A stretch of 54,140 nucleotides of DNA from Chloroflexota bacterium (lineage in GTDB: Bacteria; Chloroflexota; Dehalococcoidia; Lucifugimonadales; UBA1127). The stretch spans positions 1 through 54,140 of the forward strand of contig JAPONS010000007.1 in the NCBI GenBank assembly GCA_026713825.1, read 5' to 3'. This document shows positions 12,656 through 15,846 of the stretch, piece after piece (within the stretch, counting starts at the first letter, position 1; every line of letters begins with the position of its first letter). Made by a program: the position numbers and the translations under genes. Under the pieces are notes generated by a model. It saw only the letters and a program-made list of their open reading frames with translations, was not told the origin of the DNA and did not search any database.

Positions 12656-14014
12656 CTACGGCTTGCGGCGGCGCGCCAGCAACCCCACCAGCAGCAGCGC
12701 GGGCACAGCAACCGCGAGATCCAGCCCACCACCCTCGGCGCGGTTGCAGCCGCCGGCCTGCGTCGACTCCGGCTCCGTCGCGACGGCCGGTGACGCCGCA
12801 TCCGACCGCTCCCCGGGCGCGGCGGTGGGAAAGGGCGTCGAGCCCACGCCGAAGGGCACGAGCGTCGCTCGCGGGATGGGCGTGGGCAGCGCCGAGCGGC
12901 TAGGCGTCGCCGCGAGTGGAATCGCGCCGATGCGCGTCCTCCACTCCTGCTCGATCCCAGTGCGGTCGATGCCGTAGGAGGCCATCAGCGCCTCGTCGAT
13001 GGGTGCGCCGTCGCGCAGCTCCCGGAGCAGGTCCTGCAGCGGCCCCTCGCCGTAGGTCTCAATCATGTAGGTCACGACGCTCTCGGACTGCCCGTACATC
13101 AGCAGGGCGTCCTCCGGCCTGCCAGGCGGGCTCGTGAGCGAGGTGAGCGGGAGCAGCGTGTTGTCGTAGAGGCGCCGGGAAAACACGTTCTCGAAGCTGA
13201 AGCTTGGGAAGGGGTTGGCATACTCGGCGAGCCCCTCATTCAGCCAGGCGGGCACAGAGCGGGCGCCTCGGCCGACGGCGAACCGCATGAGGAAGTGCAC
13301 CGTCTCGTGGGCCGCCACGCCCTCCACATCGGGGTTGCCGCCCAGCAGCAGCACGACGCCCGTGTCGCCGAAGGAGACGCCCTCCGTGACCAGCGTGCCC
13401 TCCTGCACCTCGCTCCGCGGAGGCAGTGCATCGCGCATGTCCCCGATGCTGTTGTACACCGTGAGCCGCAGCGTGTCCCGCTCCTCGACGCCCATGAGCG
13501 CGCCCATGCGCTCGAGCGCCTCCTGCGCGGCCTCCAGCGCGCGCCGGGCACGGCCCTCCTGCCCGCCGTAGTGGAGCAGGTACACGCCCGGCGCGTCGAT
13601 ACGCGACCACTCGAAGCGCGGGTCCAGGAAGATGGTGCGCTCTGGCTCGGACGCGATGACGTTGCCCGCTGCGTCCGTCGCCTCCACGGAGTACTCGATC
13701 TCCGCGCCGGGCGGGATGTAGCGCGCGGCCGTGTCCGTGCGCACCAGCAGGCTTGTCGTCACGCGGCTCGCCGGGTCGAACTCCAGCGGCGCGTTGCGCG
13801 ACACCTGCTCCCCCAGCACGCGGAACCGCAGCCGCGCCTCGACGATCTCAACCGGCGCGTCCAGGGTAATGTCAAAGCGAAGGCCGTCAGGGAATTCGGT
13901 TTGGGGTTGGATGGTGAATTGCACGCCGACTTGCGCGGATGCCGTGTTGGCGCTCGACAGCACAAGCGCTGCGGCAAGCAGCGGGACAGCGAGAAGAAGG
14001 AGAGTGCGGCGCAT
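12656..14014 (-). CDS. Secreted, membrane-anchored metalloprotease of the MA (gluzincin) clan
   Basis: 452 residues. An N-terminal signal peptide (RRTLLLLAVPLLAAALVLSS then ANTASAQ) is followed by a beta-rich region (30-150). The peptidase region has VAAHETVHFLMR, an H-E-x-x-H zinc site at about residues 244-248, and WLNEGLAEYA, whose Glu is the third ligand. A Pro/Thr/Ser-rich stalk follows, then a C-terminal TM segment (LDLAVAVPALLLVGLL) and ARRRKP, the layout of a protein tethered to the outside of the membrane. It starts six bases after the thioredoxin-fold selenoprotein gene, so the two are co-transcribed, and a redox link to an exported protease is conceivable. Confidence 0.85.
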   Translation of the reverse strand: MRRTLLLLAVPLLAAALVLSSANTASAQVGVQFTIQPQTEFPDGLRFDITLDAPVEIVEARLRFRVLGEQVSRNAPLEFDPASRVTTSLLVRTDTAARYIPPGAEIEYSVEATDAAGNVIASEPERTIFLDPRFEWSRIDAPGVYLLHYGGQEGRARRALEAAQEALERMGALMGVEERDTLRLTVYNSIGDMRDALPPRSEVQEGTLVTEGVSFGDTGVVLLLGGNPDVEGVAAHETVHFLMRFAVGRGARSVPAWLNEGLAEYANPFPSFSFENVFSRRLYDNTLLPLTSLTSPPGRPEDALLMYGQSESVVTYMIETYGEGPLQDLLRELRDGAPIDEALMASYGIDRTGIEQEWRTRIGAIPLAATPSRSALPTPIPRATLVPFGVGSTPFPTAAPGERSDAASPAVATEPESTQAGGCNRAEGGGLDLAVAVPALLLVGLLARRRKP

Positions 14015-14020
14015 TCGGGG

Positions 14021-14776
14021 CTAGCGGCCGAAGATGCTGGTGGGGCCGCCCGCGGCGTCGCCGCCCGATGGCTTGCCCTTCTCTTCCAGCAGGTCTTCCT
14101 GCCCAACGACGCTCAGCATCTTTTGCAGCAGGGTCCGCTCGTTCACGGCGCCCAGCACTTCCGAGACGCCGTTGATGATGGTCTTGGGTACAGCCCGGAC
14201 CTGATGGATCTGCGAGAGGTGGGGGAATTCCTGCGCCTCGACCACCTCCGCCTGCACCATGGGGGTCTCCATTGCCATTGCGTGCGCCAGCCTGGCGACG
14301 ACAGGGCAGTGCGGTCAGGTAGGTGTCACGAAAACCTGCAGCTGCACCGGTTTCTCCAGCCGCCGGAGCGCCTTGCGCGTCGTCAGCTGCAGAGGGCTGG
14401 TGCCCTTGGCCGCTGCGATGATGTCCTCGATGAGCGTCATGACCTCGTAGCCGGCCGGGATGCCGTAAAAGCGGAGGTTGGAGGACTCTTCGCCCTCGCC
14501 ATGGAGCGTGATGCACGGCACCCGCTCGACGCCGTGCTCGCGGGCGGCGTCGGCGTCGGCGTAGAAGTCCTTGACGGTCAGGTGCACGTGCTTCGACGCG
14601 GCCGCCACCTCGGTGAGGAACTGCTCCGTCTGCGGGCACGTGGGGCACTCGCGGCCGGGCAAAATGAGGCCGCCGACGTTGCGCACGGTGTAGAGCGTCA
14701 TGCTGACGTCGCGCTTCACGTCCTTCCTGAAGCGCGCCTCCAGCGCCTTGCGGTCCTGATCAGAGAGAAGGGGCAT
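14021..14776 (-). CDS. Two-domain thioredoxin-fold disulfide oxidoreductase, probable selenoprotein (in-frame UGA)
   Basis: Read with TGA at 14317-14315 as selenocysteine, the protein has 251 residues and two thioredoxin folds as in PDO/glutaredoxin-like proteins. Domain 1 (about 1-120) carries GRECPTCPQTEQ and the cis-Pro site ERVPCITLH. Domain 2 begins VQLQVFVTPT, then Sec154, then PHCPVVARLAHAMAM: the family's CPxC active site with U in place of the first Cys. The frame after the UGA is fully coding, including the second cis-Pro site VRAVPKTIINGV. A SECIS-like hairpin starts 14 bases past the UGA. It lies 14 bases after recA and six before the membrane protease. The alternative is a nonsense mutation or base error. 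Confidence 0.78.
14281..14300 (-). promoter_or_regulatory. SECIS-like hairpin in the coding region
   Basis: On the minus strand CGTCGCCA-GGC-TGGCG-c-ACG folds as an eight-bp stem with one bulged C and a GGC loop. It begins 14 bases after the UGA. Bacterial SECIS elements are short hairpins placed right after the UGA with a G at the start of the loop, so position, size and loop all agree. It was found by eye only. Confidence 0.6.
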
Positions 14777-14790
14777 AGTGCACCTGAACC

Positions 14791-15846
14791 TTAAGCGTTT
14801 TCCTCTTCTTCCGGCGGGTCGGCGTCGCCGAGGCCGTTGGTGACGAGCTCGACGGTGGGCTCCGCCGCCGCGCGAATCAGCTGCTCGATCTCGTTGGCGG
14901 TCTCCGGGTGGTCGCGCAGGAAGTCCTTGGCGGCCTCGCGCCCCTGTCCGAGCCGCATGTCGCCGTAGGAGTAGAAGGCCCCGCTCTTCTTCACGATGTT
15001 CTGGGCCGCGCCCAGGTCGAGCAGGTCGCCCTCCTTGGTGATGCCATGGTTGAACATGATGTCGAACTCCGCCACGCGGAAGGGCGGCGCCACCTTGTTT
15101 TTGACGATGCGGGCCCGCACCCGGTTGCCCAGCACCTCGGTGCCGTGCTTGATGCCTTCGATGCGGCGCACGTCGATGCGGACGGACGAGTAGAACTTGA
15201 GCGCGCGTCCGCCCGGTGTCGTCTCCGGGTTGCCGAACATGACGCCCACCTTCTCCCGGAGCTGGTTGATAAATACGACCACGGTGTGGGACCGGTTGAT
15301 GGACGCCGTCAGCTTCCGCAGCGCCTGCGACATCAGCCGCGCCTGCAGGCCGACGTGCGTATCGCCCATATCGCCTTCCATCTCAGCGCGCGGCACGAGC
15401 GCGGCAACGCTGTCGATGACGACGATGTCGACGGCGCCGCTGCGCACCAGGTAGTCGGTGATCTCGAGCGCCTGTTCGGCGAAGTCGGGCTGCGAGATGA
15501 GCAGTTCGTCGACGTTGACGCCGATGCGCCCGGCGTAGGACGGGTCGAGCGCGTGCTCGGCGTCAATGAACGCCGCGACGCCCCCAAGGCGCTGCGCCTC
15601 CGCGACGATGTGCAGCGTGAGCGTCGTCTTGCCCGACGCCTCCGTGCCGAACACCTCGACCACGCGGCCCCTCGGCACGCCGCCGACGCCCAGCGCCAGG
15701 TCGAGCGCCAGGGAGCCGGTTGGGATGGCGTCCTTCTCCATCCTCGCCGCGACCTCGCCCAGCCTCATAATGGAGCCCTTGCCAAACTGCCGTTCTATGT
15801 GGCTCATTGCCACGTCAAGGGCCTTTTGCTTCTCAGCAGTGGTCAT
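14791..15846 (-). CDS. recA: Recombinase RecA
   Basis: 351 residues. It begins [20 protein letters not shown] then [11 protein letters not shown]; Walker A is GTEASGKTT, followed by [11 protein letters not shown], the DNA-binding loops ([14 protein letters not shown] and [20 protein letters not shown]) and the acidic tail EEEENA. It mediates strand exchange and SOS induction in the cytoplasm. The start is ATG 15846 behind gaggtg; the open frame continues upstream to 16785 but that part is antisense to bioY. The thioredoxin-fold gene and the protease follow closely, so recA heads a three-gene run. Confidence 0.97.

Follow-up and report, generated by a model that had tools for sequence, protein, structure and literature searches.

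The solved protein disulfide oxidoreductase (PDO) structures to which the gene described here is related, namely PDB 1a8l and 1j08 (titled protein disulfide oxidoreductase / glutaredoxin-like protein), 2ayt and 2hls, are built of two fused thioredoxin folds. The Dehalococcoidia protein shares this architecture, whereas the structures have Cys at the site where it is predicted to have selenocysteine (Sec). TIGR02187 proteins that contain Sec in a UxxC motif have been listed as a selenoprotein family (PMC1794560, 2006; PMC9312934; PMC13188914), and later inventories link the Sec family to TIGR02187 with UxxC (PMC9312934; PMC13188914). The Sec TIGR02187 family is also present in Asgard archaea, where a fresh origin from Cys forms has been proposed (PMC11227280). 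Regarding the selenoproteins of Chloroflexota, no paper on point was found among the open-access papers searched, absence from which is no proof.

A PDO gene with an in-frame UGA at its second active site

The gene is located in a 54,140-nucleotide stretch (the window) of contig JAPONS010000007.1 from a Chloroflexota bacterium of the class Dehalococcoidia (GCA_026713825.1), whose genome comprises 2.64 Mb in 114 contigs and is 96% complete. The features of the locus are the following:

12656 to 14014, minus strand: Peptidase MA superfamily gene, directly downstream of the PDO gene with a 6-nt gap (PF13485, 98.5 bits)
14021 to 14776, minus strand: PDO gene with two thioredoxin-fold domains (translation, profile and structure homology; 251 residues if UGA is Sec)
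14180 to 14191, minus strand: second cis-Pro motif V-P-K-T, Val196-Thr199 (translation; kept in relatives)
14282 to 14299, minus strand: putative SECIS hairpin, core region, 16-33 nt downstream of the UGA (fold, synonymous conservation, compensatory pair)
14315 to 14317, minus strand: in-frame UGA at codon 154, the first position of the C-terminal UPHC site (translation; same alignment column in 34 genes)
14633 to 14647, minus strand: CPTCP motif of the N-terminal domain, Cys44-Pro48 (translation; second redox-active dithiol by homology to PDOs)
14791 to 15846, minus strand: recA, directly upstream of the PDO gene with a 14-nt gap (PF00154, 445 bits; RecA_C, 84 bits)

Re-translation of the minus strand gave a frame of 251 codons running from the start ATG (14776-14774) to the terminal stop TAG (14023-14021), with the TGA at 14317-14315 as its sole internal stop. 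The coordinates reported in an earlier note on this DNA, which had proposed a selenoprotein, were all right. As that note had also read it, the UGA stands in place of the first Cys of the second CxxC, within T-P-T-U-P-H-C-P, the active-site motif of the second thioredoxin domain, and the second cis-Pro region, RAVPKT, is intact; the first domain retains RECPTCPQ. The standard-code ORF listing at this locus contained the 153-aa front part only. NCBIfam TIGR02187 ("PDO_seleno_TRX, protein disulfide oxidoreductase") was matched with 228.4 bits against a cut-off of 185, the alignment covering positions 2-208 of the 209-position model, and Pfam Thioredoxin_3 was matched twice. The best solved-structure matches were 1j08 (E 1e-30) and 1a8l (E 4e-30), in both of which CPYC aligned exactly with the UPHC of the PDO. 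Two thioredoxin folds, a C-terminal CxxC with Sec/Cys first and the cis-Pro are all recognizable in the translation, which places the predicted protein in the PDO family on its sequence.

The gene had been assigned to a recA operon, and this is supported as adjacency, recA (start codon inferred at MTTAEKQ) ending at 14791 on the same strand, 14 nt from the PDO ATG. The same arrangement was found in eight genomes of three families, source genome included. The Peptidase MA gene adjoins the PDO gene far more widely; the two run in the same direction within the order and converge in other families of the class. Because the adjacency to recA is narrow and that to the Peptidase MA gene much wider, the recA link is probably one of operon convenience rather than a sign of a role in recombination.

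Selenocysteine machinery and distribution of the UGA among relatives

The source genome encodes SelA (544 bits), SelB (347 bits) and SelD (380 bits) together with a tRNA-Sec (68.5 bits, over the cut-off) whose anticodon was confirmed as tca (UCA) by ARAGORN; all the components of the Sec pathway that the earlier note had named for verification were thus found. RF2 is encoded as well, hence UGA is still normally a stop in this organism and a simple reassignment does not apply. A thioredoxin reductase is also encoded, at C57:8416-9312. The SelD of this genome carries one TGA, in HCAGUAAKF (L019:1531-1533, G000:C17), and is itself a selenoprotein with a SECIS-like GG-loop hairpin after the UGA.

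The survey covered the genus, family and order with 79 genomes, the source genome among them. A clear PDO was detected in 35 of them, with the UGA in 24 and without it in 11. An over-cut-off tRNA-Sec accompanied the UGA in 23 of the 24 UGA-bearing genomes of the order, the one in which it was not found (G062) being fragmented and 84% complete. Since 68 of the 79 relatives have a tRNA-Sec, this gene does little to tell UGA genomes from Cys genomes. The same mixture of UGA and non-UGA PDO genes was obtained in a class-wide sample of 294 genomes, and plasmid records yielded distant matches only, among them AhpF and thioredoxin-like genes.

When 58 genes were aligned, all 34 UGAs fell in one column, in which the other 24 genes have Cys (23 genes; TGC in 19 and TGT in 4) or Ser (one gene; TCG), in line with the earlier statement that known relatives have Cys at this site. 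The aligned relatives displayed no scatter of other stops. Random stops in close relatives, which the earlier note would have counted against a selenoprotein, were therefore not observed, UGA being confined to this one codon. Independent assemblies share the UGA; among them, an uncultured Dehalococcoidia chromosome in a single contig (OX638292.1) encodes a 95% identical PDO protein with the TGA and the same neighbours. Within the genus, dN/dS ranged from 0.02 to 0.29 after the UGA and from 0.05 to 0.15 before it. From the low values after the UGA it follows that the 3' part is maintained as protein under purifying selection, and the claim that the frame is coding on both sides of the TGA was borne out by this selection and by the 251-residue frame itself.

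On the PDO tree, 11 Sec/Cys label changes are needed, at least six of which are forced by well-supported branches; the tree was midpoint-rooted, giving no direction of change, and the Ser row was grouped with Cys. Hence, the Sec/Cys state of the PDO has switched repeatedly.

Several individual genes were also of note. Two UGA-containing PDO genes each were present in G008 (L043 and L054, near-identical) and in G025 (L041 and L055, divergent). The gene with Ser (TCG) at the Sec/Cys position (L053) belongs to a genome with a tRNA-Sec (G018), and UGA is present in its congener L046; the redox residue may have been lost recently. In one Cys form (L057, from G059), a TAG is present four codons into the matched region, and probably lies upstream of the real start.

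A constrained hairpin downstream of the UGA

The bacterial SECIS model describes a loop of 3-9 nt with G in the first two positions, an upper stem of 4-16 bp (PMC13188914 Fig. 2), a UGA-loop spacing of 16-37 nt and a folding energy of at most -7.5 kcal/mol (PMC13188914). The hairpin predicted by RNA folding after the PDO UGA has a GGC loop (14292-14290) on a CGCCA/UGGCG stem, in which C14284 is bulged out 3' of the loop. It resembles the published model in its 3-nt loop, whose first two bases are G, its distance of 22 nt from UGA to loop, its upper stem of at least 5 bp and its energy below -7.5 kcal/mol, and differs from it by its 3' bulge. The constrained-fold criteria derived from this model, which replaced a stricter checker passed by 5 of 26 UGA genes, accept the PDO hairpin; since 54% of control codons and 24 of the 27 Cys relatives pass as well, they are non-discriminating alone. 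The bulged hairpin with a GGC loop announced in the earlier note was thus recovered as a predicted fold, whereas its energy provides weak evidence, being no better than that of shuffles in this GC-rich sequence (z 0.8 over 42 nt).

What makes the hairpin convincing is the comparative evidence, i.e., the synonymous conservation, the Arg codons of the loop and a compensatory pair. In UGA genes, the synonymous conservation z at codons +6 to +10 reached 4.4, 9.3, 6.1, 3.2 and 4.3, with a maximum at +7, and the same codons were much less constrained in Cys genes. Besides, the Arg of the hairpin loop is encoded in UGA genes by AGG (21), CGT (8) or CGG (3) and never by CGC, the codon found in 12 of the 20 Cys genes (Fisher p 6e-7, a value that, like the shuffle p-values for the hairpin codons, ignores shared ancestry). 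Elsewhere, CGC is the commonest Arg codon (132 of 346 in the first 26 UGA genes). The stem pair 18-30 (14297 with 14285) joins the third base of codon +6 to that of codon +10, and is a standard pair in 32 of 34 UGA genes vs 16 of 24 Cys relatives. It is mostly G-C, with G-U in two genes and C-G in four genes of two families, including the source gene. Hence a compensatory change from G-C to C-G has affected the stem, the source gene being involved, and the constraint on this region acts at the RNA level. In the SelD gene of the same genome, a hairpin of similar form follows the UGA at 20 nt, with a GG loop closed by A-U.

Decoding of UGA 154 and comparison with known systems

Taken together, the PDO gene very probably reads UGA 154 as Sec, the predicted nucleophilic first residue of the C-terminal CxxC. 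The earlier designation of a UxxC thioredoxin-fold oxidoreductase, PDO/glutaredoxin-like and with Sec, is strongly supported by the Sec machinery, the UGA/Cys column and the hairpin constraint. The standard code and the presence of RF2 would favor the UGA being a true stop, leaving a one-domain protein of 153 residues followed by a decaying remnant or by a separately started C-terminal fragment. However, the purifying selection 3' of the UGA and the alignment of 34 UGAs in one column, with no other stops scattered around, make this very unlikely. Besides, the post-UGA part begins mid-domain at the catalytic motif, while PDO structures are matched end to end, and past the UGA no ATG occurs before residue 167, beyond the active-site residues.

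A sequencing or assembly error that made TGA from a Cys codon would require a single base change from TGC or TGT, and MAGs appear to make up most of the genomes. Nevertheless, the same TGA occurs in many genomes, including the single-contig chromosome, and TGA and Cys genes use different codons in the hairpin; such an error has next to no probability and is, for practical purposes, refuted by the shared column. The frame is also open if the UGA is read through as Trp, Gly or Cys, by reassignment or by a suppressor tRNA. This is extremely unlikely in a genome with the full Sec machinery and RF2, at a position that is Cys in relatives, and with a like UGA, among the genes examined, only in SelD, itself a classical selenoprotein.

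If UGA 154 is read as Sec, the hairpin 16-33 nt after the UGA would recruit SelB with Sec-tRNA(Sec), so that, through SelB, codon 154 would be decoded as Sec and translation would not terminate there. By analogy with the thioredoxin-fold family, Sec154 would make the attack and Cys157 would resolve it, and this pair would perform thiol-disulfide exchange. Electrons would probably pass between the N-terminal CPTC site, a thioredoxin reductase and client disulfides, the thioredoxin reductase of the genome being a plausible electron source in view of what is known of the family.

The underlying principle is not new, but a well-supported set of Sec PDOs in Dehalococcoidia with repeated Sec/Cys exchange is apparently undescribed. 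These data correct the likely annotation of the PDO gene and its relatives, cut at the active site by the standard code, and put a selenium-dependent redox enzyme on record across an uncultured group, on whose selenoproteome no study was found among the papers searched. The Sec and Cys forms and the one Ser form among close relatives represent a usable natural experiment on Sec gain and loss. We consider it about an even chance that Sec is the prevailing state of the PDO in one Dehalococcoidia order with repeated Sec/Cys exchanges, that a compact SECIS type, its GG loop closed by an A-U pair, is common to PDO and SelD in this lineage, and that Sec gain and loss can be traced. If true, Sec gain and loss and the synonymous RNA signature could be followed stepwise within one gene family.

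Regarding known systems, the N-terminal domain of AhpF has a double-thioredoxin architecture like that of the PDO (weak matches to 1zyn and 1hyu), but AhpF differs by its flavin reductase domain and its size (521 residues in 1hyu vs 251 here). An identity as AhpF was rejected since the PDO is devoid of a flavin/pyridine nucleotide reductase domain and TIGR03140 was matched at 67 bits vs a cut-off of 503. The "new selenoprotein" of the earlier note holds for the gene and the lineage and fails as a family, Sec TIGR02187 having been known since 2006 and the model already being named PDO_seleno_TRX; the PDO adds a further member to a known selenoprotein family, and "new selenoprotein family" would be wrong. 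Its likeness to ABB15282.1, a known Sec member, is drawn through the family model and the UxxC motif only. With the known Sec AhpF-N/Grx-like family (2006), it shares the NCBIfam model, the UxxC motif type and the bacterial Sec system; the Sec members described so far come from Carboxydothermus, Symbiobacterium and Asgard archaea, whereas the present one comes from Dehalococcoidia and stands beside recA.
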